DNA of 64,000 nt from Pyrinomonadaceae bacterium (GTDB lineage Bacteria; Acidobacteriota; Blastocatellia; Pyrinomonadales; Pyrinomonadaceae), in contig DASUNM010000005.1 in assembly GCA_036277115.1 (NCBI GenBank), forward strand, positions 62,001-126,000. The letters run 5' to 3'. The notes beneath the pieces were generated by a model, which saw nothing but the letters and a program-made list of their open reading frames with translations, searched no databases and was not told where the DNA came from. The translations under genes were made by a program, and so were the position numbers. Position 1 is the first letter of the stretch, and the number at the start of each line of letters is the position of its first letter. Positions 18,307 through 40,975 of this stretch are shown in pieces.

Positions 18307-18653
18307 CCCGGTACTGACCCGAATCGCTGGTCGAACTGCGGCTCAAGGCTTCCGTTACTTTCAGTTGGATCTGAGCCTACTACTTACATTTAGACAGTGA
18401 GGGGCGTTGCAAACTGTATGCGGGATACAGTGACGCCAACCATTTGATTTCAGGCACGTTAAGGCCATACGTGCGGATGAAATACCTTAACTTTCAATTT
18501 TCTCGCTTAACGGTTGTTAGAAAACTAAAGGAAACTACAAACCGGTTCGGACTTCCGTCGTCAGAACGCACGCGAGAATCGCAAAATCGCAGGCTCGACC
18601 CACCCCCGGCATTTGTGAACTTGCGAAACTGTTTTTGGTATTATGGCGGAAAA

Positions 18654-21036: not shown

Positions 21037-21768
21037 TCATATGAACGAAGTTAGGGAGCGCAAGTTGTTAAGCAGCAACTGTTCTATCTCTGGCTTAGGC
21101 ATGTCCCAAACCTCCACCAAACGAGTAACGGCAAGATCCGCATCCCAAGGATAAGCAGGCCTTCCGTCAACCTGCGCAAAAGGGCCGTCCGACTCTGTCA
21201 GAACGCGGTCGCGCGGCATGTTCGCAACGAGTTTCCGCCCCTTCTCGCCAGCTAACATCGAAGGCCCAACAGTGAACCAGCAACCTATGTCTATCGCACG
21301 CAAGAGCTCACGTTGTGAGCCTGAAAACCAGTGCAAAATGGGAGTCCCGGCCCCAGGGACTTCCTCAAGACGATCCAGTACAGCGGCAGCAGCTCGCCGA
21401 CTGTGAATGGAGAGCATCCTGCCACCTATTGAACGACAAGCCTCGAGAATTCGGGTGAAAACTGTCACTTGGTCCCTCCAATGAGACTTGTATTCTGGTC
21501 CCCCGTCCAATCCTATCTCGCCAACATAGCGCGTCTCTGGCAAGAGGCGTTCGAACAGTGCTAACTCACTTTTTCGCTGATGCGCAAGCTGAGGATGCAA
21601 CCCAAGCGCGGTCTGTATCCTCAAGGCATCTCGAGCCAAAGCAACCGTGCCGGTCCATGCGGACGGTGCTGTGGTCACGGATAAGACATAGAGTCCTCGC
21701 GCTTGGCTCTCGTCTGCCACTTGCTGTGGCTTTGGGTATAGGTCTAAATGGCAATGCAGATCGATCAT
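21037..21768 (-). CDS. qatD: QatD, TatD-family DNase of the Qat antiphage system
   Basis: 243 residues, TatD-like metal-dependent hydrolase. Metal ligands are visible: HCH at residues 5-7 (MIDLHCHLDLYPKP), Glu in YVGEIGLDGG, His in LSIHSRRAA, His in ILHWFSG and Asp in TESDGPFAQ. Its start overlaps the qatC stop by 4 bp. A housekeeping TatD would not sit behind a QueC-like gene and a KAP ATPase, so the context defines it as the last gene of a Qat system (QueC-like, ATPase, TatD), which protects against phages. Its substrate in defence is not established. Confidence 0.9.
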   Translation of the reverse strand: MIDLHCHLDLYPKPQQVADESQARGLYVLSVTTAPSAWTGTVALARDALRIQTALGLHPQLAHQRKSELALFERLLPETRYVGEIGLDGGPEYKSHWRDQVTVFTRILEACRSIGGRMLSIHSRRAAAAVLDRLEEVPGAGTPILHWFSGSQRELLRAIDIGCWFTVGPSMLAGEKGRKLVANMPRDRVLTESDGPFAQVDGRPAYPWDADLAVTRLVEVWDMPKPEIEQLLLNNLRSLTSFI

Positions 21769-23042
21769 CTAACACCGTACGCATGGTGGAGTGCCGCCAG
21801 TTCGGCAAGTCCGCGACTCACTACTGCTTTCAACGAAGATACGTCACCCAGCAATGTCGAACTTAAGGTGACGCCAAGCCAGTCGTCGAGACCTATCGAT
21901 TCAACTTCAGCAATGGCCATAGCTGCCGAGCGGACATCATCAAAGCCGGCATAATCCGCGTCGTCTCTTCCGAGATCCTCATATATGTACTCGGTCGAAT
22001 CAGTAAACCCCCAGGCCCGGAAAGCAGCGCGTCGAATCTGACACGGCATGCACCGGCCACAATGTTTATAGCCGTACCGCATAAAGCGACCACAACTTGT
22101 CGACAAGGAGGCATGGGCCTCTAGCAGTGACTGGTTCGCGCAAGCGCTAAGCATTTCACCCTTAGTCATTAGCTGGTACGGATTCTCAATACGGACCCTC
22201 AGTCCGGCAGAGTCGATTAGGCTCTGAACTAGCCGCAGAAAGACAGGATTCATAGTGCGGGTGCTCAAACTCCCTAAACGAGCACCTGTTAATGGCGGAT
22301 TGATTGCAATGAAACCATTCTCACAAACATACAGAGTCACCATTTCTCCGCGACGGTAGGAAGCGAGCGTTGTCGCTACAAAGATGCCGTACGCGATGAA
22401 ATTGAGTGAACGTGCCCGCTGCGATGGCGGTTCCTCTGGGTCCGGCACAATCGCATTATGGTTTAGCTGGAGATGTCGCAACCCTCCACCTATGTTCCTT
22501 GCAAAGCTCACCTGTTTTTCTGCGTCGCCTCGGACAGTTTGACTCACCGCGAATGGTTTCTTGCCAGACGCGGACAGATCAATCGCGCCTACCAAGCTGT
22601 CCAGCCCCCCTGATAATAGGACGACGCTATCTTCGTCGGGTTGAATGGGTTCGTTGGGTTGCGGAGGGCGTGCGCCGCCACCAATGAAGTGAATCCTCCA
22701 ACGGTCGGTAGTCAAAAAATCCAGCGCTTTCTTGATCGTAGCAGTCTGAGTATTCCAAAACTCGGGATCACCAACGGCTACTTCGAGTTCAAAGTCACGC
22801 GTCCACCCCGTTTCCGTCCGAGAACGATGGCCCGCAAGATCCGCTGTTACAACGGAAAGAGCAAGTGAGAGTAGATCCCAAGCGCGTGCCTCACCCGCAA
22901 GCTTCTTACGAAAGATCTCGCGAAAAACTGCGGCGCCCACACTTCCGTTTTGCGATGCGTCTGCATTTCCGAAGAGACAAATTTTAAGAGCACTATCTTC
23001 ATTCGGAAATGAGGATGTGTTGGGAGTACAAATAAGTTTCAT
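21765..23042 (-). CDS. qatC: QatC, QueC-like enzyme of the Qat system
   Basis: 425 residues, about twice the length of QueC. The ATP-PP-loop motif SGGLDS is at residues 144-149 (VVLLSGGLDSLVGAID), and a zinc cluster follows near 315-335 (CGRFMRYGYKHCGRCMPC). QueC makes the nitrile of preQ0 using ATP; QatC keeps the nucleotide and zinc motifs but has an added N-terminal part of about 135 residues. It overlaps qatB and qatD by 4 bp each, so the three are translationally coupled. Chemistry in the defence system is not known; an amide or nitrile modification of a protein or nucleobase is conjecture. Confidence 0.92.
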   Translation of the reverse strand: MKLICTPNTSSFPNEDSALKICLFGNADASQNGSVGAAVFREIFRKKLAGEARAWDLLSLALSVVTADLAGHRSRTETGWTRDFELEVAVGDPEFWNTQTATIKKALDFLTTDRWRIHFIGGGARPPQPNEPIQPDEDSVVLLSGGLDSLVGAIDLSASGKKPFAVSQTVRGDAEKQVSFARNIGGGLRHLQLNHNAIVPDPEEPPSQRARSLNFIAYGIFVATTLASYRRGEMVTLYVCENGFIAINPPLTGARLGSLSTRTMNPVFLRLVQSLIDSAGLRVRIENPYQLMTKGEMLSACANQSLLEAHASLSTSCGRFMRYGYKHCGRCMPCQIRRAAFRAWGFTDSTEYIYEDLGRDDADYAGFDDVRSAAMAIAEVESIGLDDWLGVTLSSTLLGDVSSLKAVVSRGLAELAALHHAYGVR

Positions 23043-23860
23043 GAAGCATACGCCTCAAAAACATCAAAAGCCGCACGCAAGGCATCTCGGACGAGGTGCT
23101 CCATGCGCCTGGACGTCACACCCGTGGCGGCTTGGCGCAGTCTCCTGAACGCAGCCGCCACGGTCTCTTTTATATAATCGCGCACTTGCTTGAGACGAGA
23201 AAGTGCAGTAGCGGCGCTCGGTGCCTTATCACGAATTGTCTTACCAAGATCTAAGTCAAATCGACGGAATACATCAAACGCCACGTAACGCTCTACTGCA
23301 AACATTCGCTCCTCATCGTTGAGATTCAAAAGATCGGCTTCAGGGAATCGCGTAAGTAACTCGGAGAGCGCGTCGCCGATTGCTGCTCGGCCTGCTTCCG
23401 CATCCTGCGTTCCGTCTACCGGCTGAACAGCTTCAATCACAGCATCCATGACTTCTCTTGCAGTCTTCCCTCTCAAAAGCACCGGATCGATTCGAGTTCC
23501 CGCTGTAACCGGCTGGTCCGCTGCATCAAGCGCGAGAGCGTCATAAAGCATTCCCGCAGTCGACACTGCCCCTCCAAAACGTCGAACAGCGGTGCCCGCT
23601 CCGCCGTAGCCAGAGCGGACATAACTACCGACTCCTCTCCGCAGACTGTTGGCATCGCCACTTCGGGCGAAATCTCCCAAGTTTCGGCGAGCTCCACCGA
23701 AGCGGTTCGGCGGCGCAATTGTCGGTGTTGGGCTAGGTGTAGGCGCGGGAGCTTGCGGTAAGCCAGCGCCGGGTGTCTCGTCGCTCGGGATATCAGGAAC
23801 CCACGGGGGCACCATGGGCACGCCAGATGGAGGCCCCCCACTAGAACTAGACGTCCCCAT
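23039..23860 (-). CDS. qatB: QatB, structural or substrate component of the Qat system
   Basis: 273 residues. The N-terminus MGTSSSSGGPPSGVPMVPPW is the hallmark opening of QatB proteins, followed by a proline-rich disordered stretch and a Gly/Arg-rich segment (RFGGARRNLGDFARSGDAN). From about residue 100 the protein is helical (LLTRFPEADLLNLNDEERMF). It has no enzyme motif. It overlaps qatA by 14 bp and qatC by 4 bp. The exposed, conserved N-terminus next to a QueC-like enzyme makes it a possible modification target, which is my inference. Confidence 0.88.
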   Translation of the reverse strand: MGTSSSSGGPPSGVPMVPPWVPDIPSDETPGAGLPQAPAPTPSPTPTIAPPNRFGGARRNLGDFARSGDANSLRRGVGSYVRSGYGGAGTAVRRFGGAVSTAGMLYDALALDAADQPVTAGTRIDPVLLRGKTAREVMDAVIEAVQPVDGTQDAEAGRAAIGDALSELLTRFPEADLLNLNDEERMFAVERYVAFDVFRRFDLDLGKTIRDKAPSAATALSRLKQVRDYIKETVAAAFRRLRQAATGVTSRRMEHLVRDALRAAFDVFEAYAS

Positions 23861-25709
23861 TTTCGCTCCTTCGCCGCATTGCCGTTTTTACCGGACGCGA
23901 AACAGCGGCTGATTGCCACGCGCTGAAGACGGTCTCTGCCCAGGTTTCGTCACCTATCTTTGGCACAATGTTCGGTTGGATCTGTGCCGGTGGTCGATCC
24001 CGCAAGAATGCTGCTAGCCGAGCACCCTGTGGTGGATCCGCCTGTGACACAACTAGACAAGCTTCCAAAATAGGCGGCACCCCCCACTCTTGTTCTTTGC
24101 GCGCGCGATCAAGCAGTCGGTCCATTATGATCGTGATTTCGGCCCGAGGAACGCGAGCTAATCGGTCCTTGACACTCTCTGCCATGTCTGGATGTTGGAG
24201 TAACGCGGTGAGCAACTCCACCGATTCTGACGAAAGACGATCTTCAGGCGTAATAAGTGGAGCATGCTCACGACTGACGTAAAGCGCGCCCCGAAGATCC
24301 TGCTCTGCCAGACGGGGCGGGACGATGAGCCATTCCTGAACAAATGGATCATTCCACGGTTCCTTTAACGACAGCGCTGCACCAGCGTTTGCCTTCTCCT
24401 CCCATTCCGCCAAAAAGAGAGGTTGTCCTTGTTCGTTTGCGCTCACAGCCTTTATGAGTTCAGCGTACGCTTCGGGTCGACCGAGTCGCTCAAACAAAAG
24501 CATTTTAGCCAGGACAGCCTCATCGACGCCGACTCCTTGCGCGTTAGAAATAGTCATTCGGATGGCAAGGGCATTCAAGAATCGCTTAATCAAGCGCGGA
24601 TTTCCAATAATGCCTGTAGCCGTGGTCATCATAGGCGCAAGCCGATCCGCGGTGTCGAATTTTCCGACAAGTTCGTCTGGCAGATTGTTGTGTAACGTCT
24701 GAATAAAGGCCCGATCCACGCGTTTGCCCTGCCAAGTTTGCCTTAACTGTGCGCACACGCCGGCACGAATCTGCTCTTTGATATCGTCTGCTAAGTCACT
24801 ATTTTCAACGAATAGCAGCATTATGTAAGCACGCACTTCTTGAGTGCCGAGCGGAGGGACCCTAATTGGAACTTGGATTAGCTTGTCAAAATAGTTGGTG
24901 ACAAGAACATCATCGTTGATTCCTTCAAAGTGTTGCCGCACAGCGTGCTTGATCATTTCATTGTCGGCGGCAATCACAAATGCGGTGTTGCGCAGAAACA
25001 GAAAAAGACGGATCGCTTCCAGCGTCGCAATTGTCGTGGGTGGTAAGCATCGATCAAGATCATCAATCAACACCACGAGAGTCACTCCAAGCTCGTCCAA
25101 CGTTTCTTCAAAAGTGTCTCGAAGTGCCTGGATCTCTTTTGGGGGCGAGATTTCGGCTTTGGGTTTTAGCAGTCCTGTCCCCGCTGCAGCAACCTCGCCT
25201 ACCTTCGACTGACCCTCATTTATCAACGCCTCATTTACGCCGGCGCCAATAGCCCTATTCCCAAGTGACCAGAGTTCTCCCAGAAGCCCAACCGGCGGTA
25301 ATCCTAGCGAGAGGGCAACGGCCGAGCCTCCCACAAGTTTGGCAGCACGAAGCCAGTTAACCCGCTTCAAAAGGTCTTTGGCCTTATCAACTCCCCGCTC
25401 GCGGTTATGGGCTTCCTCCTGAAGTTTGGTGGCAATCACGTCCATCAGCGCTGCTCGTGCATCGTCGTACCCTTGGTACAGCCAAGCATTGAACTCAACG
25501 AAAATGAATTCCCGATCCTCTTCTTCTGAATGCCGGTTTGTTAAGGATTGCCGCGTGAGTTTTATCATCGACGACTTGCCTGAGCCCCAGGCACCAGACA
25601 CGCCGATCGAAATTGGCCGACCGCGCGCCTGTACAATTATCTCCGCGACGGTATCAGCGACACCCGCAAAATTTAGAAAATCTGTTGTGGTTTCTATATC
25701 AGACCACAT
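23847..25709 (-). CDS. qatA: QatA, KAP-family P-loop ATPase of the Qat system
   Basis: 620 residues. A KAP-type NTPase: Walker A GAWGSGKSSMIK near residues 39-50, the FVEFNAWLYQGYDD stretch that follows it in the family, and Walker B VVLIDDLDRCLPP near 213-223. A glycine-rich hydrophobic insert (LVGGSAVALSLGLPPVGLLG, about 125-145) between Walker A and B fits the membrane-associated insertion typical of KAP ATPases. It is first of qatABCD. The remaining C-terminal part (about 390-620) is helical. 220 bp without a gene lie upstream; no ribosome-binding site stands out. Confidence 0.93.
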   Translation of the reverse strand: MWSDIETTTDFLNFAGVADTVAEIIVQARGRPISIGVSGAWGSGKSSMIKLTRQSLTNRHSEEEDREFIFVEFNAWLYQGYDDARAALMDVIATKLQEEAHNRERGVDKAKDLLKRVNWLRAAKLVGGSAVALSLGLPPVGLLGELWSLGNRAIGAGVNEALINEGQSKVGEVAAAGTGLLKPKAEISPPKEIQALRDTFEETLDELGVTLVVLIDDLDRCLPPTTIATLEAIRLFLFLRNTAFVIAADNEMIKHAVRQHFEGINDDVLVTNYFDKLIQVPIRVPPLGTQEVRAYIMLLFVENSDLADDIKEQIRAGVCAQLRQTWQGKRVDRAFIQTLHNNLPDELVGKFDTADRLAPMMTTATGIIGNPRLIKRFLNALAIRMTISNAQGVGVDEAVLAKMLLFERLGRPEAYAELIKAVSANEQGQPLFLAEWEEKANAGAALSLKEPWNDPFVQEWLIVPPRLAEQDLRGALYVSREHAPLITPEDRLSSESVELLTALLQHPDMAESVKDRLARVPRAEITIIMDRLLDRARKEQEWGVPPILEACLVVSQADPPQGARLAAFLRDRPPAQIQPNIVPKIGDETWAETVFSAWQSAAVSRPVKTAMRRRSENGDV

Positions 25710-26381: not shown

Positions 26382-27614
26382 CTAGGCTGGTTTCTTTGGC
26401 TCGAAATCGACAACGTTTGCGCCCCTCTCGGCGTTTGTCGGCTGTGCAACTAGCTTCAAGGTGGGAAGATGCCTAACATTGCCGAAATTAGGATCGAAGT
26501 ATCCCTCCGGGAGGTTCATAAGCTTTTCTATGTCGCGCTGCTTGTAAGGTAGCTCATGCAGTATTTCTGCTTTCGTCTTAATGTTTGCGTCTATGATCAT
26601 GTCAAAGCAGTCTTTCATCAGACGCGGGCTTTCGAAAGGCATAATGTCATCTTTCGGTTCGGCGTGTTTCCATCGGCGGTTATAGTAGATATAGAGTCTC
26701 CGCGTTTGATCTTCGTCAATCATTCCCAGCTGGCTACACCGCATAATCATCGCTTTGACCGAGACCTTCCATCGTTCCTTCAGCGATAACAACGCCTCTA
26801 GGGATGTCATCCACACATCAGCACGGAAAGAATCGGCAGGCATCAGAAAAGCCGAAGCGAATCGAAACGCTTGATGCTCAACTAGAGAGTGTTTTTTCGT
26901 CTTGTCCTTATCTTCCAAGTACTTCTTGCTAAGGTGCGAATGCAAAATCAAATGTCCAAGTTCATGAGCGGCATCCAAACGCGAACGCACGGCCGTGCTA
27001 TCGTCAGTCCCCAAAAAGATATGAAAAGACTTGTCAAATTCAGAAACGTTTGAAAAGGCATCTAGCCTGCCAGATGCGAGATCGCCATAAGTCACCAAGA
27101 TCCCGTTGTTCTCTAATTCGCGAGTCAGATCGTCGATAGGCAGCATACCTAATCCCCAAAACCGCCTAAGCTTCAGCGTGATCTCTTCAACGTCACGATC
27201 CGTGAGTAAAAACGGATCGTCAGGGATCGCAAGTTCCTCTCGTGTTGGAAGATTCACGGGAGGCAATTCAAGAAACTGCTTTAGATATTCGTCAGCGATC
27301 CACTTTGCCCAATTTAGTTTGCGCTCTGCAGTGATGCGACTCGTCTTCGTAGCGGCATGTCGCGAACGCCAAAACACCGGATTGCTAATCTTGCGAGGGA
27401 TCGGAATAAAGAAAAAGGATTCCTTAACTTTCAGTTGCTCTGCCATTCGCATGACCATCTCATGACGGGGCTTCATTGCATTGCTTTCATAATGACTCAC
27501 AGCTTTAACGCTGAGATCGAGTAAGTCCGCAAGTGCAGACTTAGTCATGATTCCCCTGGCTTCTCTTGCTTCCGTCAGCCGTTCGCCGACAAATCCACTT
27601 ACACCAATGGTCAA
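26382..27614 (-). CDS. XRE-family regulator fused to ImmA/IrrE metallopeptidase
   Basis: 410 residues. An N-terminal helix-turn-helix (about 8-65, LTEAREARGIMTKSALADLL and VSHYESNAMKPRHEM) is followed by an ImmA/IrrE domain with the zinc motif AAHELGHLILH near residue 218 and a later helical part. In ICEBs1 ImmA and Deinococcus IrrE, such peptidases cleave a repressor on a stress signal; single-chain XRE-ImmA proteins are common in mobile elements and TA-like loci. It follows the unknown 235-residue gene by 20 bp and precedes the 144-residue gene and Qat. It could control all of them; a palindrome at 28364-28389 is a candidate site. Confidence 0.9.
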   Translation of the reverse strand: MTIGVSGFVGERLTEAREARGIMTKSALADLLDLSVKAVSHYESNAMKPRHEMVMRMAEQLKVKESFFFIPIPRKISNPVFWRSRHAATKTSRITAERKLNWAKWIADEYLKQFLELPPVNLPTREELAIPDDPFLLTDRDVEEITLKLRRFWGLGMLPIDDLTRELENNGILVTYGDLASGRLDAFSNVSEFDKSFHIFLGTDDSTAVRSRLDAAHELGHLILHSHLSKKYLEDKDKTKKHSLVEHQAFRFASAFLMPADSFRADVWMTSLEALLSLKERWKVSVKAMIMRCSQLGMIDEDQTRRLYIYYNRRWKHAEPKDDIMPFESPRLMKDCFDMIIDANIKTKAEILHELPYKQRDIEKLMNLPEGYFDPNFGNVRHLPTLKLVAQPTNAERGANVVDFEPKKPA

Positions 27615-27634
27615 CTTTGTTCTCCCCGAAATGA

Positions 27635-28342
27635 CTACTGTTGCTTTTTGATCTTCGGACTAATAATGCGCACCTTTGGCAGCGCGATACGTCGACGTTC
27701 GTTCTGGCAGGTCGTTACGTGATTGATCAGGCTGTACAGACTGTAACGCTCGACATATCGCAACTTCTTTTGCGCGTCCTCGGTGTTCTCCACATCCGCC
27801 ACGCACGGAAACGCAATCTGCATAAACCCGTCAGCCGTGAACGTATTTCCCGTTCCGCGACAACCATGAATGAAATTCCCGTAGATGTTGTTGGCCTTGC
27901 GCAGCTTGTTATTGTCGAATGGCGGTTCGAACAGATTGCCTTGCAGCAGCGACATGTTGATGTTCGAGTTTTGCGCCCGCATTAACGATGGATTCAGACA
28001 CTTCACTTCGGAAGGACTCGCTCCGTGATGATTTGTAAAATGAAAACGTCCCATTTTTACGACCGCGCTCGGAAACCCGTTCTGTTCACACCGATCTACC
28101 CACGACTCCAATCCGCAGTCACTGGCCAACTTCAGAAACATAGTCTGATGCAAATAAAAAAGCAGTTGCCCTTCATAATAGGGAGCGAAGTCTGGATGGA
28201 CTGAGCCGTCCCGTGCGGCAACATGCGCCTCGTTGTAAATCACTGCGCCGCGTTCGCCGTAGCCTTTGAGAAAACGTAAACCGTGTCTCGCCTCAAGCGT
28301 GTCCTCAACTAACATCTCGTAAAGCGTTGATTCTTTTGTCAC
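27635..28342 (-). CDS. Unknown protein paired with an XRE-ImmA regulator
   Basis: 235 residues, starting GTG at 28342 with GGGAG 6 nt upstream. The sequence is mixed alpha/beta (SLYEMLV-type start, then FLKGYGERGAVIYNEAHVAA, LVEDTLEARHGLRF, GRFHFTNHHGASPSEVKCLN) and ends strongly basic. Two histidine pairs (HFTNHH) and conserved-looking acidic residues exist, but no named catalytic motif. The gene is 20 bp ahead of the XRE-ImmA gene. In such pairs the partner is often a toxin or the regulated effector, but here this is only suggested by position. I cannot assign a family. Confidence 0.65.
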   Translation of the reverse strand: MTKESTLYEMLVEDTLEARHGLRFLKGYGERGAVIYNEAHVAARDGSVHPDFAPYYEGQLLFYLHQTMFLKLASDCGLESWVDRCEQNGFPSAVVKMGRFHFTNHHGASPSEVKCLNPSLMRAQNSNINMSLLQGNLFEPPFDNNKLRKANNIYGNFIHGCRGTGNTFTADGFMQIAFPCVADVENTEDAQKKLRYVERYSLYSLINHVTTCQNERRRIALPKVRIISPKIKKQQ

Positions 28343-30610: not shown

Positions 30611-31927
30611 TTAGTATCCGTCACGGCCGGCACGAAGAAGTGCGTTTAGTTGAACGATAGCCTGCTCGTACTTTCGCCGCACGTTTCGAGGACTCAGGTC
30701 AAGTATCTGCGCGATTTCTCGGACATCAAATCCACCAAGAACCACCAGTTGTACTATATGTGCTAGGTCAGAAGGAAGACGACCGACAGCGTCCCACAGG
30801 TCGACTGATTTCTGTTGCCGTTCAAACTCACCAAAAATCGATAAGTCTATATAGTCACCAAACGTTCTGCCTTCGGACAGGACTTCGAGTGGAACGTGGG
30901 ACCGTTCATGCGGGCTGTGCCGCCTAGCGTCACGAATCTCCCTAGCGATGACTCTATCTAATAGGCCCCTTTCATCAGGGATCTTTGTCTGGCTCTGCAG
31001 GACCAGCAGTAATGCTTCCTGTGAAATGCTCTCATAATCCACGGTTTCGTCGCCGAAATCTCGCGCCAATTGGCGTGCCCGTCGCGTAGCGTAATCAAGC
31101 AGCGATTCTAAGTGGGTGCCGGAGTCTCTAATAGTATCTAAGAGGTTCGTTAGGCCTTCGGTACGGCCATCTCCGGGCGAAACGCCGGCGGTGCTTGACT
31201 GTGGAATGAGTGGCGCCAAAACGAGCAGCCTGTCAGGAATCGAAGATTCGAAGCGACGCAAGAGTTCGTCGTAAGGTAGGATCTGACAACCCATAGGTAC
31301 GAGTCCACCGGTTTGATTACGCACAAACTCGGAGCTGATAGTCTTGGTAAGGTGTGAAGACAAACCCATAATCACGAATAGGTGCTGAGATGCGCCGAGG
31401 AAAATCGCGCGCTCAGGGAGCTTTAACGCTCGGGCATAGTGGCTGGCCTGTCGGATGGCAGTGTCCGCTTCTCGGGTAAGAATAACGATATCGTTGCGCG
31501 GCGATGTTAGCACCCGGGAATCAGGACGTTTAAGCTCGATAACCCCGTATCCAGTGATGAGGGCTTTGCTGCGTTGGTAGAAGATGAAGTCAGCTTCGCT
31601 CTGTCCTGGCCGGCCTAGGGGAACTATGTCCGTAGGAGAAAGACGGAGAGGGAGGCTACGGGAAAGTACGTACGGGTGTTCAGTGAAGAGTGCCTGCCAT
31701 TCGGCTTCAGGTGCGTTTTGCAGTAAAAGTTCTCGAAACCGCTCTCTGGCCAAGCGAAGACGTGCGCTGAATGATGCGGGATGTTTCGAACTGGTACGCA
31801 CCGCATCAGCATAACGAGGCCTCAAGTTGACAGCAACTCGGCGGTTCTCATCCTCGTGCCTTACCGCACTCTCAGAAGCGGCATACGTCGACGCCAGTAA
31901 GATCTCATGATGCGTGTAAACTCGCAC
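30611..31927 (-). CDS. Shedu-like (DUF4263) nuclease fused to a sigma-70-like module
   Basis: 438 residues with a GTG start at 31927, inside the end of the SIR2 gene (67-bp overlap); a later GTG at 31801 is possible. Residues 55-240 resemble the DUF4263/Shedu nuclease: APEAEWQALFTEHPYVLSR, then the PD-(D/E)xK triad Asp113 (SEADFIFYQ), Glu131 and Lys133 (GYGVIELKRPDSRV). Residues 275-435 look like a sigma-70 ECF factor: region 2 RARQLARDFGDETVDYESIS, and region 4 RLPSDLAHIVQLVVLGGFDV with REIAQILDLSPRNVRRKYEQ. I know of no described Shedu with a sigma module. It follows the SIR2 gene on one transcript and may cut DNA or act as a DNA-bound switch. Confidence 0.8.
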   Translation of the reverse strand: MRVYTHHEILLASTYAASESAVRHEDENRRVAVNLRPRYADAVRTSSKHPASFSARLRLARERFRELLLQNAPEAEWQALFTEHPYVLSRSLPLRLSPTDIVPLGRPGQSEADFIFYQRSKALITGYGVIELKRPDSRVLTSPRNDIVILTREADTAIRQASHYARALKLPERAIFLGASQHLFVIMGLSSHLTKTISSEFVRNQTGGLVPMGCQILPYDELLRRFESSIPDRLLVLAPLIPQSSTAGVSPGDGRTEGLTNLLDTIRDSGTHLESLLDYATRRARQLARDFGDETVDYESISQEALLLVLQSQTKIPDERGLLDRVIAREIRDARRHSPHERSHVPLEVLSEGRTFGDYIDLSIFGEFERQQKSVDLWDAVGRLPSDLAHIVQLVVLGGFDVREIAQILDLSPRNVRRKYEQAIVQLNALLRAGRDGY

Positions 31928-33639
31928 GCGCGAAAATTAGTCAGCATCGAGTCAATGTAGTTGGCCTCTTGTCCACTGTCTAAGTCAAAGCAGGACCGCG
32001 ACGCGGCCCGTAGTTTCCACGATTGGGGCGCGATTCCTAATACATCGCAGTAATGCAACTGGCGACTGACAGCCAAAGCAAGTTCGGATCGTTCTATGGC
32101 CGTTCGACCATTAGGCGGACGCTTTTCGACCTCGTCCAGAAGCGCCATCGATTGCGCCAAAAAGTAGCCAAGTTGAAGATACCCCTCTCCAGGCTGGGGT
32201 GGGGGATAAAAATCGCCTTCTGCCAAGTCTTCCAGAGGTATTCCAAGTCGTAGTCCCACAAGACCCGCCTGTTGAAAATCAAGCCAGTTTCCTTTAGCCA
32301 GTGCCTCCATTGCACATTTGCGCAACACAAGGACTGAACAGTGACGCAACCATCGACGCAGTCGTGCGAACGTAGGCGGCAGGAAACCGTGCACAGCAAA
32401 GAGTAAGAGAGCTGACTTTAGGAGCATTTTGGCACGAGACTGTTTGTCAACGAGAAAAGCTGCGGCCGCGAATGTTATCCATGAGCGCGAGACTGCACCG
32501 TAGATCCTATAGGCATCGCAAACGTCAAGCAGCGCATCGCCCGCTGCCGCGCGCCCATGTCTCCTGTAGAGTTGCCAGCTCGCTTGTAGAAAATCTCCCG
32601 CGGCTGAGTGACACTTCCCGGCACTTACAAGAGCATGGCCACGCTGGCGTTTAGCGATTACACGATCCAAGGTCCCTGCCGTTTCGATTGTCCTTAGCGC
32701 TAATATGGGGGCTCCGATTCTCACAAGAATTGCCAGGCGCCACTCCTTTAATTGCTCGTGAGTAAATCGCTTTGATAGTGACTGCTGAGTCACAACATCC
32801 ATGCCAGTTGTCAACTTTGCGGGCGCAGAGCCTAGCCACTCGTGCAGGACTGCGTTCATATCGCCGCTCAAAATATGGCCGTCTGAATTTTGTAATAGTA
32901 ATTTGGCATTCACGCTTGGTGGGGCTGGGTTACGGCTGATCCAAACAATCTTCGAGGGTGCGATGCGAGATATCTCCGGACAAAGTTCGAAGTCGCGCCC
33001 AGAATACCCGATAAAGACAAGCGTCCTATGGTCTAGAAGATCTCTTAACACTGAACGCTTCCAAGCGGGTAGCAAATGTTCTTCACCGAGTGTGCGAATT
33101 GCCGTGTGTTCTAGTCCTGGTTCACTAGAGCCATGAATCTTGAAGTAAGTCGGCAGGGAGGGTGCGAACGTTTCGGCATCGTCTTCGGTGACTATTTTCC
33201 GGACTCGAAGCTGAAGTAAACTCAAGCTCGCTTCCAGGCAACAGTCATAATTGGTGGTTACCAATGATGCAACTTCGCCACCTCCCAGCGCTGCTGCTAA
33301 CGCTTTATGAAAGGCGTTTGGAACGTTTCTACCGTACAGTTCAACCAAAAGATCGCCGGCCGCTCGAGGATTCGGACATACTTCAAGAACGTGCTCAAAC
33401 GGCATTTCATTGAACAACTCATGAATGATGGGACGTTCTTCAGCACTAAGAGGAAAGGATGAATCAAACAGTAATGAGTAGAGTGAAGCTGTAAAGTCCT
33501 GTCCGCTTGGCATTCCCGAAGGCTCCCAAATCGACACTCCGGAACCTACGAAAGCCACGGGGGTTTCAGAACGCAGTGAGCGAATCAAGTCGCTCGCCTC
33601 AGGTGATCCGATAATGTGTACGCGTGGGGAGGGAATCAT
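31861..33639 (-). CDS. SIR2-domain protein with long helical C-terminus
   Basis: 592 residues from the ATG at 33639, 10 bp after the coiled-coil gene; the frame is open further upstream (to 33717) but would overlap that gene. The SIR2 fold is shown by PVAFVGSGVSIWEPSG (nucleotide-binding glycines), LVTTNYDCCLE (TNYD), YFKIHGSSEP (catalytic histidine) and TLVFIGYSGRDFE. In defence, such domains destroy NAD+ to stop phage growth. The C-terminal 290 residues are helical and repeat-like (AKRQRGHALVSAGKCHSAAG), like a TPR sensor. Behind the recombinase genes and ahead of the nuclease-sigma gene, it is likely island cargo. The NADase role is inferred. Confidence 0.85.
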   Translation of the reverse strand: MIPSPRVHIIGSPEASDLIRSLRSETPVAFVGSGVSIWEPSGMPSGQDFTASLYSLLFDSSFPLSAEERPIIHELFNEMPFEHVLEVCPNPRAAGDLLVELYGRNVPNAFHKALAAALGGGEVASLVTTNYDCCLEASLSLLQLRVRKIVTEDDAETFAPSLPTYFKIHGSSEPGLEHTAIRTLGEEHLLPAWKRSVLRDLLDHRTLVFIGYSGRDFELCPEISRIAPSKIVWISRNPAPPSVNAKLLLQNSDGHILSGDMNAVLHEWLGSAPAKLTTGMDVVTQQSLSKRFTHEQLKEWRLAILVRIGAPILALRTIETAGTLDRVIAKRQRGHALVSAGKCHSAAGDFLQASWQLYRRHGRAAAGDALLDVCDAYRIYGAVSRSWITFAAAAFLVDKQSRAKMLLKSALLLFAVHGFLPPTFARLRRWLRHCSVLVLRKCAMEALAKGNWLDFQQAGLVGLRLGIPLEDLAEGDFYPPPQPGEGYLQLGYFLAQSMALLDEVEKRPPNGRTAIERSELALAVSRQLHYCDVLGIAPQSWKLRAASRSCFDLDSGQEANYIDSMLTNFRACEFTRIMRSYWRRRMPLLRVR

Positions 33640-33649
33640 GGGGAAGTCT

Positions 33650-34183
33650 CTATCCTTTACCGGATGAGCCAAGATCGTCCTGAGCATCTTCCATAAGTGC
33701 TTTCGCTTGCTTTTCAAGGCGAGCGCTTAGGTCACGAGCCTTTGCAAAATCGCTACTGCTAAGAAACGATATGACGGTGCTCAGCATGGCGCGGAGTAGC
33801 CGCTTTTTACGGCTATCTTCTTCCTTCCCAGCTTCTAGTCTGACAATCCTCGCTTTGAGTTGGGGAATGGTCTTGACTTGGGTCTCCAGGCGCTCAATTT
33901 TGCGAGACTGCCGCTCAATCTGCGACTCGAGGAATTTGATTTCTAATGAGCCTTGTCGCTTCTGCGACGCCGCCGAAAACCGTGCGACATAGTCACTTAA
34001 TTCTCGGCGTAGAACCGGAAAATGGCGAAGTGCTGACTTATTCGCGTAACCGTTACGTCGAGCGAACCCAGCAATAGTAACCTTCTCTCCTTGGCTCTTC
34101 AAAAGCTGGAAGTCATCCAAAAGTTGTTGCTCACGCGCACTGACAATGGGAGCAGAAGGTTGTGATGTCTTAGGTTGACCCAT
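33650..34183 (-). CDS. Coiled-coil accessory protein of the recombinase module (TnpC-like)
   Basis: 177 residues from the ATG at 34183, overlapping the end of the third recombinase by 14 bp; a TTG at 34204 is the alternative. The N-terminal third may bind DNA (VTIAGFARRNGYANKSALRH looks like a helix-turn-helix), and residues 85-140 form a coiled coil (EIKFLESQIERQSRKIERLE, TQVKTIPQLKARIVRLEAGK). In Tn554, TnpC is a small protein of this design that helps orient transposition, which makes it the closest known analogue. Assignment is by position and architecture, not by recognised sequence. Confidence 0.7.
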   Translation of the reverse strand: MGQPKTSQPSAPIVSAREQQLLDDFQLLKSQGEKVTIAGFARRNGYANKSALRHFPVLRRELSDYVARFSAASQKRQGSLEIKFLESQIERQSRKIERLETQVKTIPQLKARIVRLEAGKEEDSRKKRLLRAMLSTVISFLSSSDFAKARDLSARLEKQAKALMEDAQDDLGSSGKG

Positions 34184-36515
34184 TGAGAGATCTAGCAGTT
34201 TCAAGAAGTGACTTGTAATGATCTAGCTTTGCTTCCGTGTGGGACTTCCATCCCCATTGATCCTCCTGCATGCGACTAAGCTGAGACTCCATGACTTCTA
34301 TATCCGCCGTTAGTTGTTCAACAGAATCAGGCAGTAGCACTAGGTACTTGCATCCACAACCTAGCACCGGGTCGGTACCTTTTGGCAAGATTCCGATTGG
34401 GCAAGGATTCGCTGTGGGGCAAGGCCCTGAATTCGCTTGTAACAAACATCCGCCATAGCGGGTAACATTAAAAACGACCTTTTGCGAGGCGAGTTTGCCC
34501 GCCTCCTGAGGACTCATAGGAATATCGTCGACTATGTCAGCTTGGAGAACTCTTCGCTTCGCTTCTTCAAATGATAGTTGATTCGGCGGCACAGTTATGT
34601 TCTTGGCCTCCTCCCCCATCGCCTCAGTTTTCATCCTAGCTACGCCGTCAAAAATCATCCCTGTTGCGGCGCCTCTTCGCAGCGCTTCGGCCGTTCTGTG
34701 CCTCATCTTGTCTGTGCCGCCAGCGAGATAAAAGGTCGCGGCCATTCTTGTACTTCCCCCGCCAAGAATGTGACCAAGGTAGCGAGCAACATCTTGAACA
34801 GTTCCGCCGGCCTCCATCATGTGAGTGGAGTGGGTGTGACGTGCGTGATGCAGCTGGAAGCTCAATAAATCGTCGAGTTTGTGACGACGAAGCAAGTCAA
34901 CTTTCCCAGGTTGATTGGTATATAGATACTCTGCCAAAACCTTCGTTGTAAGGGCGATCGCGGAGCCAATGGACCGCCCAGGTATAATAAATAGTCGTTT
35001 CTGCGCGTCCTCAGATGCCAGAGGTCTGATTTCAGCGGTGAGTCCTTGAGCGGTTCGAATTGCATCTTCCGCCATTTCTCCAAAGCCATCCACGCAAGGG
35101 ACCCATTCTAGTAAGCCCTCATCACCCCAAGTCTTACGGCTTCGGAACTGGATTTCTACTATTCGCCGACCTGCGATCGACTGAACTTTCACCTTGGGTT
35201 CCGATTCAAGCTCGAGAATGGCACTCACGCGTCTTGCTGCGGCAAGTTGTAGTCTCAATGCCTGGGCTTTGATCGCGCGAGAAAGATAACGCGGCAAGGC
35301 TTCGCGAATTGCCATTATTCGCCTACTCTTAGTCTCTCCAATCGACCGACGAAGCCCAGCGGATATTCTTCGCGAAACTGAAATCTCTGTCAGGCCCACT
35401 TGAGCGCCAATCGCTGACGCCGGATGCATACGATTACCCTTCAACCCAAAGTAAAGAACGATACAAAGGCTTGTCGGGCTTGCTGGAGCGGAGAGATCGA
35501 CGTTCGCCAGAATAGTACGCACGTAATCACGATTCTTTGTTACTTCACTGAGGTTTTGGCCGGCCTGGCCGAATTGGCTACGTAGTTGAAGGACTTCGGC
35601 AGCAAGTGGAGCGCCGAGTCGGTGGGATAGAAACTTCGAAATGCGGCGCGTTACGTCTGGCGCCGAGTTCGGCGACAGGCCTCTCAATGTAGCGACATCC
35701 TTCGCTCTGTGTTCTCGAAAGCCGTTTAACCCGAAATAGCGTTCAGTATCAAAACTCACAAGCGGACGAAATTCTGCTTTTCGCAAGTCAAGTGACTGAA
35801 GGTGCCGTTTTATTGTTTCCAGTCCCTTTCGGTAGCGCCGCAGATCCTGTCGAAGGGCATATTCGATATTTGCTATTTGGTCGGGACTAAGAACCTTGTC
35901 GGGATTGGCCGAACCTACGGATCGGGTTTCACACTGTTTTAGAAGCTTTGATCGTTTCAACCGGACTGGCACTGTAGTGCCGTCGATTTCTTCGTAGAGA
36001 ATTGCCGCCATATTGAATGCACTAATGGCATTCCGGGCAAACTTGGGTCCATGCAGTTTTGACTCACGTTGGATCCGTTTGTTTTCACGATCGCTCAGTA
36101 CACGCCCAGCTTTTGTCGCTGCCTCGTGCAGCGTGTCGCGATATCGAGTAATCTCTTGATCAATTCGACGCTGCAAAATCAGCTTATGTTCGTTCCTCAA
36201 ATCTGCCATCGAACCGCCATTAAAGTCTTCCAGCCATGTCGACATCTGTCGGAATGTTGAAACTAGGATTGCGCACCAGTTCGGAGATCTCCTTAAGCTT
36301 AGCCAACCATGACTCAGAGTGATTTTCACCGGCCTAACAAACCAAGCAGGCAGATCGCCAAATGAGACGCTCGTCCGATCCCCGATTGTGGGAGATATCA
36401 ACCATGAATCGTCGTCGAACATTACGAATTCGCCAGTGTGGTGGACATAAGGTTTACCACCGATAAAATCCAACGGAGCAGCTGTTAGATGTTGATGTTC
36501 GGTTGCAAGCGTCAT
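34170..36515 (-). CDS. Large tyrosine recombinase, third of trio
   Basis: 781 residues. The catalytic part is near residues 470-610: LHHARHTHSTHMMEAGG (HxxR-type with Arg and His), DVARYLGHILGGGSTRMAAT (LGH box) and the nearby Tyr in TFYLAGGTDKMR as nucleophile. About 450 residues before it are helical and unrecognised. After it comes a cysteine-rich stretch (CLLQANSGPCPTANPCPIG, later GCGC) and a coiled-coil tail. It starts 5 bp after the second recombinase. Such long recombinases with terminal Cys clusters occur in Tn554-type TnpB. The first catalytic Arg could not be pinpointed. Confidence 0.85.
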   Translation of the reverse strand: MTLATEHQHLTAAPLDFIGGKPYVHHTGEFVMFDDDSWLISPTIGDRTSVSFGDLPAWFVRPVKITLSHGWLSLRRSPNWCAILVSTFRQMSTWLEDFNGGSMADLRNEHKLILQRRIDQEITRYRDTLHEAATKAGRVLSDRENKRIQRESKLHGPKFARNAISAFNMAAILYEEIDGTTVPVRLKRSKLLKQCETRSVGSANPDKVLSPDQIANIEYALRQDLRRYRKGLETIKRHLQSLDLRKAEFRPLVSFDTERYFGLNGFREHRAKDVATLRGLSPNSAPDVTRRISKFLSHRLGAPLAAEVLQLRSQFGQAGQNLSEVTKNRDYVRTILANVDLSAPASPTSLCIVLYFGLKGNRMHPASAIGAQVGLTEISVSRRISAGLRRSIGETKSRRIMAIREALPRYLSRAIKAQALRLQLAAARRVSAILELESEPKVKVQSIAGRRIVEIQFRSRKTWGDEGLLEWVPCVDGFGEMAEDAIRTAQGLTAEIRPLASEDAQKRLFIIPGRSIGSAIALTTKVLAEYLYTNQPGKVDLLRRHKLDDLLSFQLHHARHTHSTHMMEAGGTVQDVARYLGHILGGGSTRMAATFYLAGGTDKMRHRTAEALRRGAATGMIFDGVARMKTEAMGEEAKNITVPPNQLSFEEAKRRVLQADIVDDIPMSPQEAGKLASQKVVFNVTRYGGCLLQANSGPCPTANPCPIGILPKGTDPVLGCGCKYLVLLPDSVEQLTADIEVMESQLSRMQEDQWGWKSHTEAKLDHYKSLLETARSLNGST

Positions 36516-36520
36516 CGTTG

Positions 36521-38056
36521 TTACGCCTGAGAAATAGCGTCGTCGATTCGATCAATTATTGCTTGATTGAGGGCAGCAAATTCGCGCAGGTTTTGCGCGT
36601 CACGAGTTAAGCCTAAATCGTTCTCCAGGTTGCTGGCATTACTCAAAGCTTCATCACGTTCTTGCACAAAAAACGACTTTCTAGAAATATGAATTCGAAA
36701 GAACGGACAGAGTCGACAATCTGAAGCGCGCCGACAAGAATAGTCTCCCGACACCGCCTGTTGACAATGACCACCGGGAACCTTCGCAGAGGCTGTCTGC
36801 GCGACCCCCTCATCTTGAGGGGATGCAATCTTGTTCGCTAATGAAATCCTGAACATCTCCGCGGAAGGCGCAAGGTAGGTGGCGATGTTTCTCAACCACT
36901 GCTCATGTGCCTCGTGTATGTAAAACTTCATCGTTGTATCGAACGTGAGATGCCGCGCAAATCGCATGACTGTCTCCGGATTACGCTCGTGGCGTGCGGC
37001 TTCGGTTATGGCTGCCCCGCGTAACGTCTTGAAGGGTAGGTGACATTTTTGAGGCGCCGGGTCTTGTTCAGATTTGGAAAAGGTATAAAGACACGGAATA
37101 CCGTCCGGATCGAGAAACTCAAAATATTTCTCATAGAATCTTTCGAGAGATTTGTTCAACCTCACGGTATCGAACCTGAAGAGTGTGTTTCTCCATGGGC
37201 CTCCGAGACATCGGATCATCATCAGTGGTTCCCCAGACCTTAAAGATGTGCGGTACTGCGACATCACCTTTTGGGCCAGTTCAAAACATGATCCGATGCT
37301 CGAGGTGAGGGCGACTTCGGATGGTTCCTTGTTTGGCGGTCTTAGCAAAAGCCGATCGCCCCGGAGATCACCAATTTTCATGTGATTAAATTCGACCGGA
37401 CGCACGGCTAGGTCTATTCCGAGAAGGATGGAAAACGGCAATAACGGAAAGCACGATTGACCATTGATCAACACCTCAGGATCTGTTTGCAGTAGCTCCT
37501 GACATTCTTCGTATTCGAGTCGGACAGCTTTTCGAAGCTGAATCAATCTCTCTGGCGGAATGGCATTTGCTCTCATCAACTCGAGCTTGCGAGCAGCACT
37601 GCCCTTAAAGGCAGCACGATGACGTTGGCGAGCGGCATGAGCGTCTCGTAAGCTAATTCTGCCGCCATCCGCTAGCCAGTCGATGAATTGAAGCAACAGA
37701 CTTCCGTAAAATCGACGACTCTCCTCCGTCAGTTTTGTTCCTTTGCATGATTGCGTAGCTTTCAACCATTCTGTGTAGGCTGCAAACGTCTCTGATGTAA
37801 GACTGGGTCGATCATGAGAAGCAGAGAAAGAAAGGAGCCGTTGAATGGCATGACAGTAACCCTGAAGAGTTCTACTCGTCCAATGAGGACCGCGATCAAT
37901 TAGAAACGCGCGAATGTCGTGCGAGAATGGAGTCGAACCGAACTCAAACTTGATCAAAAAAACTTTGTCGCGAACATTTATCTCAGCCTGGAGAGTAAAA
38001 GACCGAATCTCGACTCGACAAAGATCGGTTGTGAGGAATTCACAGTTGGTCGTCAT
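36521..38056 (-). CDS. Tyrosine recombinase, second of trio
   Basis: 511 residues. An N-terminal core-binding part (DIRAFLIDRGPHWTSRTLQG) is followed by the catalytic domain with Arg in LGIDLAVRPVEFNHMK, a KTLRGAAITEAARHE segment where HxxR is usual (the His is replaced), FARHLTFDTTMKFYIHEAHE with His and the likely Tyr nucleophile, and a C-terminal cysteine cluster (GGHCQQAV, then CRRASDCRLCPFF). The replaced first His is worth noting. It starts 6 bp after the first recombinase. Confidence 0.87.
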   Translation of the reverse strand: MTTNCEFLTTDLCRVEIRSFTLQAEINVRDKVFLIKFEFGSTPFSHDIRAFLIDRGPHWTSRTLQGYCHAIQRLLSFSASHDRPSLTSETFAAYTEWLKATQSCKGTKLTEESRRFYGSLLLQFIDWLADGGRISLRDAHAARQRHRAAFKGSAARKLELMRANAIPPERLIQLRKAVRLEYEECQELLQTDPEVLINGQSCFPLLPFSILLGIDLAVRPVEFNHMKIGDLRGDRLLLRPPNKEPSEVALTSSIGSCFELAQKVMSQYRTSLRSGEPLMMIRCLGGPWRNTLFRFDTVRLNKSLERFYEKYFEFLDPDGIPCLYTFSKSEQDPAPQKCHLPFKTLRGAAITEAARHERNPETVMRFARHLTFDTTMKFYIHEAHEQWLRNIATYLAPSAEMFRISLANKIASPQDEGVAQTASAKVPGGHCQQAVSGDYSCRRASDCRLCPFFRIHISRKSFFVQERDEALSNASNLENDLGLTRDAQNLREFAALNQAIIDRIDDAISQA

Positions 38057-38062
38057 GATGAA

Positions 38063-39361
38063 TCACACTAGGTTGTCACTGTAAGCTTTTGTCATTTCGG
38101 CAGTTCGGGTGCTTTCCAGCTTTGAGAGAAAATCGACGTAGCGTCTCCTGTATACTTTTCCGTACAAATCTGTGGTTTCTGGTTTTTTGTGACCAAGATG
38201 TCGTTGTCGTATGTCCCGGGGAACCCCCCAATCCTCGAAGAGGGACTCAACCGTGTGACGAACTGCATGTGGATGTGCGGTGAATTGCTCCTCCGTGAAT
38301 TCTCCACCAAAGATCGGAAACCTTGTGTTTAGGCTTTCAAATAGGCTATCCAACCCGTTCACGGTCAGCGGTCCACCATCACGGTTTGTTAAGAACATGT
38401 GATGGGACGTGTTGCCTGACCGTTTCCACTTATCGATTAACAGCGAACGACTTCGCACCCAGTTTTGCCAAGCGACAATTATTCTCGGATCCCAACCGAT
38501 GAAAATCGTGCGAGGGCCAGTCTTTGCTGTGCCAAGCCTCTGGGTCTCATTCCTTGGTCTCAAACAAACCCAAAGGTCCTCACCGTAAAAGCGTATGTCC
38601 TCATCCATGATTAGCGGAACTTCGCTGCGGCGCATGCCAGATCCGAGCATCAAAGCCCACAACATCTGTTGCCGGTGAAACCACGCGCGTTTATCTTTGT
38701 AAGTTTGTTGGGCAGCTTTCCAATTGACACTCTTCCGCGATGACCAACCACGCTTGGGTCCAAAGGGATGCTCCGAGAGAATAAAAGGCTTCTTAGGACG
38801 TGCTTCAGAGGTCAGGTAACTCCATATGGCTTCGACTTCGTTCGGCTCGAATACGTGGTTGAATTTCAGTTTTCGCCGCCCGCGCGGAACACCGATATTG
38901 AAGTAATCGGGCAGGGCTTTCGATGCGTTTTGCCACTGCGACTTGGTTCTGTAACTGTGTCGGCACGCTTCCGACTGAATAAGGCCCCACCAGGCACAAA
39001 GAAAGCCAACCTCTCCTAGCATGTGTGACGCACGCGCGTAATGGAGCGGCCGAGTTGGGTTATTGTCTATTCCGGTTTCTGACTGTCTTACGCGCCAGAA
39101 CAACTCATTTCGAAAATGCAGAATGAATGGCTTGAGCGTTCCTTCGGTAAAATCGAAAAAATTGAGTCCGTTGCGCTCGAGAAATCGGAAGAATGGAACC
39201 AAGGAGTACGCTTTGTCGGCAAGCGTAGCATCCTCTAACATCAGATTTGATCTGAGATAATTGTTCGCAGCAATTACCGGATGAGGTCCATCCCATAGTT
39301 CGTAAACAGTTCTTTCCCAGAACGGACAGTAGGTGCGAATTACTTGAATTCCTGAACCCAT
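38063..39361 (-). CDS. Tyrosine recombinase, first of trio
   Basis: 432 residues with an intact catalytic set: Arg in LMLGSGMRRSEVPLIM, HAVRHTVESLFEDWG (HxxR), RQRHLGHKKPETTDLYGKVY with the LGH box and the Tyr nucleophile. The N-terminal half (PHPVIAANNYLRSNLMLEDA) is the SAM-like core-binding region. It is the first gene of the reverse-strand run and the most canonical of the three recombinases. Its promoter must be in the 228-bp gap shared with the divergent SIR2 operon at 39590. Confidence 0.93.
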   Translation of the reverse strand: MGSGIQVIRTYCPFWERTVYELWDGPHPVIAANNYLRSNLMLEDATLADKAYSLVPFFRFLERNGLNFFDFTEGTLKPFILHFRNELFWRVRQSETGIDNNPTRPLHYARASHMLGEVGFLCAWWGLIQSEACRHSYRTKSQWQNASKALPDYFNIGVPRGRRKLKFNHVFEPNEVEAIWSYLTSEARPKKPFILSEHPFGPKRGWSSRKSVNWKAAQQTYKDKRAWFHRQQMLWALMLGSGMRRSEVPLIMDEDIRFYGEDLWVCLRPRNETQRLGTAKTGPRTIFIGWDPRIIVAWQNWVRSRSLLIDKWKRSGNTSHHMFLTNRDGGPLTVNGLDSLFESLNTRFPIFGGEFTEEQFTAHPHAVRHTVESLFEDWGVPRDIRQRHLGHKKPETTDLYGKVYRRRYVDFLSKLESTRTAEMTKAYSDNLV

Positions 39362-39589: not shown

Positions 39590-40975
39590 GTGCCTTTACC
39601 CCCAGAACTGCTACAAGCAATATCCTCACCTGCCGGCGGTCAGGTGGCACTGATTCTTGGGGCTGGCTGCTCTGTTGAATATCCGACTAACATACCGATC
39701 TCTCGAGACCTATCACTTGAGGTTCATCGACGACTTGTTGCCGATTCAATACTCAACGAGGGCGAGTGTGCAAATCCTGAAGACCTTTCGGTCCTATGCG
39801 ATAAGGTGTTTGACAAGACTCGGCTCCAAAAACCGGTTGTCGATCGAATACTCTCCATATCTGATTTCAAAGTAGCTCCACCCAATGACGGCTATCTAAT
39901 CACCGCTGCATTGCTTGCTGAGGGGGCGATTTCGTCTGTCGTCACCCTGAATTTTGACGTGGCGCTTACAACTGCGCTTTCGCAGCTGGGACTTGGCTCT
40001 GTTGTTGGCGTGATTGAACGGCCCGAGGACTTGCAACTGCCCCATACCAAGCTCGTCAATGTTTATTACTTGCACAGAAACGCGAACTCTCCGGACCCTG
40101 AATTGTGGGTTTTGCGCACTTCTGTGCTCGAGGAGGACTGGAGAAATCATTGGGAAGCTCTCATCGCCGTCAGGGTGCTGACAGCCCCCGTCGTTGTCTT
40201 TGCGGGTTTAGGGACGCCCATAGCAGTCTTACTCGAGAGCAGTCGTCTAATTCGAGAAGCTCTCCCAATGCCGACCGTCGTTTATCAGGTAGGTCCCGGA
40301 GCACGCGTAGGATCGCGTTTTGCATTAGAAGCTGGTGTCGATGCACAACATTACATCCAGCTCGGGTGGGGTGAATTCATGACTGAGCTGGCAAAACGGT
40401 TGACAGTCGAATTCCGTAGTAAACTTGACCAATCGCTTCGCGAGAAAACCGAAGAAGAACAGCTACCAGCCGAGAATTCAGGGGACCTTGTGAATCAGAT
40501 CATGAATCTTGATTTTGTCACGCAGGGCATTCTTCGGGCGCATGTTCTACTCGCCAGCAAACCGTATGAGCCCGCAAGCGATGATGCGTTTCGACTCATC
40601 GGGGATCTATTGTTAGCGATCGCCATGATCGCGAGAATCTCAGCTTCGTCCGCTGTCATTTTGAAAAATGGTATGGTGGAATTTCGAAGAGATCATCGGA
40701 CCGTAGCTAGATATATTCTAGCCTCCGGTCGAGGTCATCGTGGAAGGGCGGCAGTGGAAGCGCAGCTGAGATCCCGACGACAGCGTGTTGACGAGATGGA
40801 AGCTAATGGCGTTTTAGTCGCCGGAACCTCAGAGCCCATTGAATTGCCAACCTTACCGAAAGACATTGCGCGAGGCGATATACCTTTTGATGATCTAATC
40901 GCGCCTGACACTCCTATGTACCACGTGAGTGTTATTCGAAGCGCGCCTGAAACCATTGGAGATATAGTTCCATGA
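39590..40975 (+). CDS. SIR2-like protein, first gene of a four-gene operon
   Basis: 461 residues from a GTG with AAGGA 5 nt upstream. The SIR2-like nucleotide site is GQVALILGAGCSVEYPTNIP near 17-36; VVTLNFDVALTTAL has the Asn/Asp of the family, with a His in VYYLHRNAN and VVFAGLGTPIAVLLESS later. The catalytic His region is less canonical than in the 31861-33639 protein. The C-terminal part is helical. It overlaps the next gene by 4 bp (ATGA), so the four proteins are made together. As with other SIR2 effectors it may consume NAD+ or cleave another nucleotide; this is inference. Confidence 0.8.
   Translation: MPLPPELLQAISSPAGGQVALILGAGCSVEYPTNIPISRDLSLEVHRRLVADSILNEGECANPEDLSVLCDKVFDKTRLQKPVVDRILSISDFKVAPPNDGYLITAALLAEGAISSVVTLNFDVALTTALSQLGLGSVVGVIERPEDLQLPHTKLVNVYYLHRNANSPDPELWVLRTSVLEEDWRNHWEALIAVRVLTAPVVVFAGLGTPIAVLLESSRLIREALPMPTVVYQVGPGARVGSRFALEAGVDAQHYIQLGWGEFMTELAKRLTVEFRSKLDQSLREKTEEEQLPAENSGDLVNQIMNLDFVTQGILRAHVLLASKPYEPASDDAFRLIGDLLLAIAMIARISASSAVILKNGMVEFRRDHRTVARYILASGRGHRGRAAVEAQLRSRRQRVDEMEANGVLVAGTSEPIELPTLPKDIARGDIPFDDLIAPDTPMYHVSVIRSAPETIGDIVP

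Follow-up and report, generated by a model that had tools for sequence, protein, structure and literature searches.

The fusion gene and its genomic setting

Within the window, that is, the whole 64,000-nucleotide stretch of acidobacterial DNA analysed here, the open reading frame at positions 30611-31927 encodes a protein in which a Shedu-type nuclease core is joined to an ECF-sigma module through a flexible linker. The coordinates of this frame had been given correctly in a preliminary description of the sequence, which did not state the strand; the gene lies on the minus strand. It is the last gene of a minus-strand run that proceeds in the order recombinase 1, recombinase 2, recombinase 3, coiled-coil protein, SIR2 protein and fusion, and the intergenic gaps along this operon, calculated from the ORF coordinates and probable starts, are 6, 5, -35, 10 and 59 nt.

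38063-39361, minus strand: tyrosine recombinase 1, first gene of the operon (Pfam Phage_integrase, E=5.9e-8)
36521-38056, minus strand: recombinase-like protein 2 (SAM-like N-terminal domain of phage integrases)
34170-36515, minus strand: recombinase-like protein 3, 781 aa (weak phage-integrase match)
33650-34204, minus strand: small coiled-coil protein, a putative counterpart of TnpC of Tn554-type elements, judged by its position
31861-33639, minus strand: SIR2-domain protein with a helical C-terminal part (Pfam SIR2_2, E=2.6e-10)
30611-31927, minus strand: Shedu-sigma fusion, 438 aa counted from GTG1

The ATG of the SIR2 gene is at 33637-33639, 10 nt past the preceding stop. The GTG at codon 1 of the fusion frame overlaps the 3' end of the SIR2 gene, and two further in-frame codons were considered as starts.

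31799-31801, minus strand: GTG43, the likelier start of the fusion gene, 59 nt past the stop of the SIR2 gene
31823-31825, minus strand: TTG35, an alternative start taken from the codon list

Because the SIR2 stop lies at 31861 and the closest relative (L021) begins shortly before the same helix, the true start is probably GTG43 or TTG35 rather than GTG1. This choice leaves both domains unaffected; at most approximately 50 residues, mostly of low confidence in the model, lie ahead of the nuclease domain.

Since the three recombinases and the small protein, as we take it, resemble Tn554-type modules, the SIR2 gene and the fusion gene look like the cargo of such a module. Recombinase-like protein 3 has a cysteine-containing C-terminal stretch; neither 199 genomes of the phylum nor plasmids yielded a relative of this protein. 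The SIR2 protein was also considered as an obligate partner of the fusion and rejected; around its relatives in two acidobacteria and on Agrobacterium plasmids, the stretches read contain neither a Shedu nor a sigma gene, and for this reason the SIR2 gene is not treated here as part of one system with the fusion.

The fusion gene sits in a rich defence island, which contains, in addition to the SIR2 gene, QatABCD, RmrAT and Lamassu-like genes.

21037-25709, minus strand: complete QatABCD system (QatD, QatC, QatB, QatA)
26382-28342: RmrA (HTH and M78 peptidase) with an adjoining RmrT-like gene
39590-43701: Lamassu-like set, divergent from the recombinase operon

The Lamassu-like set consists of a protein with weak SIR2-type matches, an ABC-3C middle-component-like protein and an LmuB-type SMC ATPase. 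Elsewhere in the window, the protein encoded at 18444-20891 carries a PD-T4-6-type kinase domain (217-490) and a C-terminal PDC-S65 match (524-804).

Nuclease core, sigma module and the junction between them

The fusion protein is divided as listed below, and Pfam, NCBIfam, a custom profile, AlphaFold2 and PDB searches all concur on this architecture.

31223-31780, minus strand: Shedu-type PD-(D/E)xK nuclease domain, residues ~50-235 (Pfam SduA_C; fold match to 8ti9_B)
31589-31591, minus strand: catalytic D113 (column nearly invariant in 10 Shedu domains)
31529-31537, minus strand: catalytic E131-L-K133 (E131 nearly invariant and K133 invariant in the 10 Shedu domains)
31154-31222, minus strand: linker, residues ~236-258 (pLDDT under 50 for residues 233-256)
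30908-31153, minus strand: sigma2-like part, residues ~259-340, with Q303-E304 of region 2.2 kept (ECF profile; conserved columns)
30620-30832, minus strand: sigma4 part with HTH, residues ~366-436 (Pfam Sigma70_r4_2; BldN 6dxo_A)

The preliminary description had read the protein as a Shedu/DUF4263-type nuclease followed by an ECF sigma factor, and family profiles, conserved catalytic residues and structure comparison bear out this two-domain reading. No Pfam family other than those of the nuclease and sigma parts was found in the fusion protein, the coverage of bacterial TRADD-N by Pfam being uncertain.

In the nuclease half, Pfam SduA_C (PF14082) matches residues 72-168 with E=2.8e-6, over the curated cut-off, and the PADLOC SduA model matches with E=1.1e-6. 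The AlphaFold2 model was built from a shallow alignment of acidobacterial Shedu domains that contained no sigma sequences; it matched B. cereus Shedu 8ti9_B (VIA Z=15.2, 163 residues, 3.7 A) over residues 53-234, and E. coli SduA was also matched in the PDB search. The proposed DUF4263-like layout with a PD-(D/E)xK triad thus agrees with the Pfam, PADLOC and fold matches, and the triad had been correctly assigned to D113, E131 and K133, all three of which show conservation in relatives. When the nuclease of the fusion was aligned with nine other acidobacterial Shedu domains (n=10), E74, G108, K133 and Q160 were invariant, and Q78, D113, E131, A157, G188, E200 and D220 were nearly so. The catalytic residues are intact, and the fusion protein is a putative active nuclease.

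In the sigma half, two Pfam families matched over their cut-offs, Sigma70_r4_2 (PF08281) at residues 376-426 (E=9.9e-9) and Sigma70_ECF at residues 367-423 (E=6.8e-5). The NCBIfam model TIGR02937 (sigma70-ECF) spans residues 274-428 with E=4.8e-10, but its score of 39.3 bits is 3.6 bits short of the curated cut-off of 42.9; by this cut-off, the fusion protein falls short of a plain ECF sigma assignment. Because Pfam gave no match to sigma region 2 in the fusion protein, a custom profile was built from 49 ECF sigmas of acidobacteria. These were chosen by similarity to the module of the fusion, and in this test, which is therefore somewhat biased in its favour, the complete protein scored 86.5 bits (the median of the 49 profile-building ECFs is 227), region 4 by itself 55.6 bits and region 2 by itself 29.7 bits; the best of 1000 shuffles of region 2 reached 11.9 bits.

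The first structure model had a mean pLDDT of 68 with unreliable interdomain placement, to which we attribute the large rmsd obtained for sigma2 and sigma4 combined. Two separate alignments were folded instead of one mixed Shedu-plus-sigma alignment, since the sigma rows were mis-aligned in the mixed one. In the PDB search, the model made without sigma sequences also hit SigH and SigL of M. tuberculosis, over sigma2 and sigma4 alike (prob 1.00, E about 5e-4), the fold match to sigma2 beginning at residue ~260, and sigma4 superimposed on BldN 6dxo_A at 0.6 A over 59 residues. Profiles and structure therefore both place ECF sigma regions 2 and 4 at the C-terminus, as had been claimed, with region 2 missed by Pfam; the two sigma motifs quoted earlier are present in the protein, and the concern that the C-terminal half might not be sigma-like is answered by the SigH/SigL matches of the AlphaFold2 model.

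The sigma fold is complete yet diverged. The fusion retains 58% of ECF consensus residues against a mean of 69% for real ECFs, which is the fifth lowest value of 49, and it ranks fourth lowest of 49 in region 2.1-2.2; several common consensus residues of region 2 are altered. The best conserved ECF columns (A288, R336, E404 and L427) are retained, as is the Q-E pair of region 2.2 (Q303 and E304), which presumably corresponds to the core-binding residues of sigma70. Given the divergence, the sigma module may have lost RNA polymerase binding.

It is very improbable that the fusion is an accident or artefact in which neighbouring genes were joined through a lost stop codon, by a genomic event or a read error, with no joint function. 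The Shedu-sigma fusion is carried by one genome only, and GC3 differs slightly between the halves (0.53 and 0.49), as such a merger might leave them; however, the reading frame is open along its full length, a flexible linker lies between nuclease and sigma, and the same nuclease domain in a relative is also extended C-terminally from about the same point. The junction lacks an ATG; the closest in-frame start codons are TTG237 and TTG287, of which TTG287 falls within the sigma fold. A merger of two genes by read error, against which the preliminary description had cautioned, is accordingly unlikely, with a slight chance of a single overlooked stop codon.

Relatives and distribution

The closest relative of the nuclease domain is encoded in an Acidobacteria gp7 MAG (L021/L023) and is 48% identical over the nuclease, with the same triad.

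6004-7059 of L023: closest relative, 351 aa, Shedu-type nuclease followed by a different C-terminal domain

The nuclease of this relative ends at about the same place as that of the fusion. No sigma signal was found in the C-terminal domain that follows, and this domain had no match among the profiles or the PDB; by eye, it is possibly TIR-like (DIVLLLLAAHHTNDWV). As the closest relative's nuclease continues into a different C-terminal domain, the C-terminal part behaves as an exchangeable module on the Shedu core. No obvious defence gene adjoins the gene of the relative, and a short tandem repeat lies beside it at 7566-8000 of L023 (minus strand), with MQVKQAR units in one frame and FHLHPGL in the other. 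Another protein, at locus L039, has a Shedu-type nuclease near its N terminus and then a C-terminal part without an identified family, and two proteins of approximately 605-611 aa (L037 and L040) seem to combine a GHKL-type ATPase at the N terminus with a Shedu-type nuclease region behind it.

In a Pfam survey, Shedu matches were present in 17 of 396 acidobacterial genomes, and no sigma module was found at the Shedu loci of these 396 genomes, either in ORFs or in the surrounding DNA read. The survey threshold missed the window's own fusion protein, so that further diverged Shedu members may have been missed as well. The search for the two-domain architecture, which the preliminary description had recommended, found the pairing in one genome only, with no second case in plasmids, phages, viral contigs, the organism's own order or the 396 genomes of the phylum. 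One scan reached beyond the phylum and recovered only the gp7 relative; since it used strict peptide patterns, the absence of the fusion elsewhere is weak evidence. The joined arrangement is thus known from a single occurrence.

Proposed function and comparison with known systems

On the simplest reading of this architecture, recognition or control would be the task of the sigma module, which would act through RNA polymerase, promoter DNA or an anti-sigma factor. We tentatively propose that the fusion is a single-protein defence effector, with the ECF sigma as an exchangeable specificity module that aims or gates the nuclease by contact with RNA polymerase or a promoter. The partner of the sigma part would be the RNA polymerase core, a promoter-like DNA site or both, and this binding would aim or gate the nuclease, which in a normal cell would be held back or low in activity; upon infection, DNA would be cut where transcription starts on the invading DNA, or once the relation between sigma and polymerase is disturbed. 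The C-terminal ECF sigma would in this manner replace the usual N-terminal Shedu sensor as the specificity-giving module. All of this is putative, RNA polymerase binding and phage defence by the fusion as much as the gating step, and so are the roles suggested in the preliminary description, namely placing the nuclease at promoters, sensing altered RNA polymerase and controlling the operon. Targeting or gating is given the largest share of our confidence because the nuclease residues are intact and domains beside the Shedu core are known as sensors. The stricter version, an active Shedu nuclease tethered to a working sigma, with transcription initiation complexes as the target of its cleavage or the licence for it (promoter-directed or polymerase-sensing), we consider somewhat unlikely.

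ECF modules have been published both as parts of proteins presumed to be immune (PMC8195603) and, in one case, as the output of a defence system (PMC10028731), which brings both targeting and transcriptional output into play. If the module were a true sigma factor, sensing or binding of DNA ends or of invader DNA might fall to the nuclease half, and the sigma half would then switch on its own operon, including the SIR2 and recombinase genes, or other genes of the island. The nearly complete ECF layout (TIGR02937 model 4-162 of 165), the retained Q-E pair of region 2.2 and the place of the fusion at the end of a tightly spaced operon that contains a SIR2 protein would fit such an output, for which CASP-sigma in type III-E CRISPR (PMC10028731) and the ECF-like HTH of TRADD-N conflict proteins, interpreted as a transcriptional response (PMC8195603), provide precedents. 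We nevertheless regard it as unlikely, as the sigma residues are diverged, an intact nuclease triad would be superfluous for a pure sensor, and canonical ECF promoter patterns, which may not be those of this sigma, are not enriched in the window.

The divergence of region 2 and its lack of a Pfam match would suit a sigma mimic or DNA-binding adaptor, in which the fold persists without holoenzyme function and an anti-sigma factor, possibly of a phage, or DNA binding switches the nuclease. Two further observations point in the same direction: Pfam weakly matches the module to the sigma-like domain of PhyR, and response regulators bearing a sigma-like domain were among its profile matches; the PhyR domain binds the anti-sigma factor NepR, and phage anti-sigma factors are well known. 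Region 2 is still detectable, however, several of the best conserved residues are retained, and a scan of neighbouring proteins revealed no anti-sigma factor; on balance, a mimic or adaptor seems to us quite unlikely.

The Shedu-sigma pairing, found nowhere else in these searches, points to a defence nuclease whose targeting or control runs through the transcription machinery of the cell. If the sigma part works, an immune nuclease would find or judge its target through the machinery that starts transcription, and no description of such a targeting principle for defence nucleases was found in the literature searched. Even without transcription initiation, the Shedu core accepts exchangeable C-terminal modules, beyond its N-terminal sensors. 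The compactness of the fusion allows RNA polymerase binding, DNA binding and cleavage to be assayed jointly.

A nuclease joined to a transcription-initiation module had been described as not known in defence. This stands for the Shedu-sigma fusion itself, of which no published case was found in the literature searched (the Shedu survey of Gu et al. 2025 lies outside its coverage), but the claim needs narrowing, because other ECF modules have been published in defence. ECF-like sigma HTH domains are fused to TRADD-N conflict proteins and have been read as a transcriptional response (PMC8195603); these, too, are presumed immune proteins to which an ECF-like module is fused, but they lack a Shedu nuclease, and their ECF part is N-terminal, occupying the place of effectors such as REase. 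CASP-sigma, the CRISPR-linked ECF sigma of type III-E systems, is likewise an ECF sigma within a defence system and serves as a defence output, but it is a separate gene with no nuclease fusion and is controlled by proteolysis of the inhibitor Csx30 (PMC10028731). With the ECF (group IV) sigmas, such as M. tuberculosis SigL and SigH and E. coli sigmaE, the fusion shares the order and spacing of sigma2 and sigma4, whereas its module sits behind a nuclease, is diverged in region 2 and scores just below the NCBIfam cut-off.

In characterised Shedu, an N-terminal clamp engages DNA ends and nicking occurs at a set distance; differences among the N-terminal parts are believed to govern specificity (PMC12904381). 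Shedu proteins combine a common core with diverse sensor domains, as stated in PMC12904381 and in the title of Gu et al. as cited in PMC12839542. The fusion shares the PD-(D/E)xK core with EcSduA (8ps4/8ps5) and B. cereus Shedu (8ti8/8ti9) by Pfam, PADLOC and fold (Z 11-15), and has the same kind of catalytic residues. The nuclease of the gp7 relative is closer still, but its C-terminal domain is not a sigma. In known Shedu proteins, such as the characterised type I, a variable sensor or clamp lies N-terminal to the nuclease, whereas the fusion begins with the nuclease and has its variable module, an ECF sigma, at the C-terminus. Because the N-terminal sensor or clamp is absent and the extra domain is C-terminal, the fusion is a protein with a Shedu core, rather than a classic Shedu.
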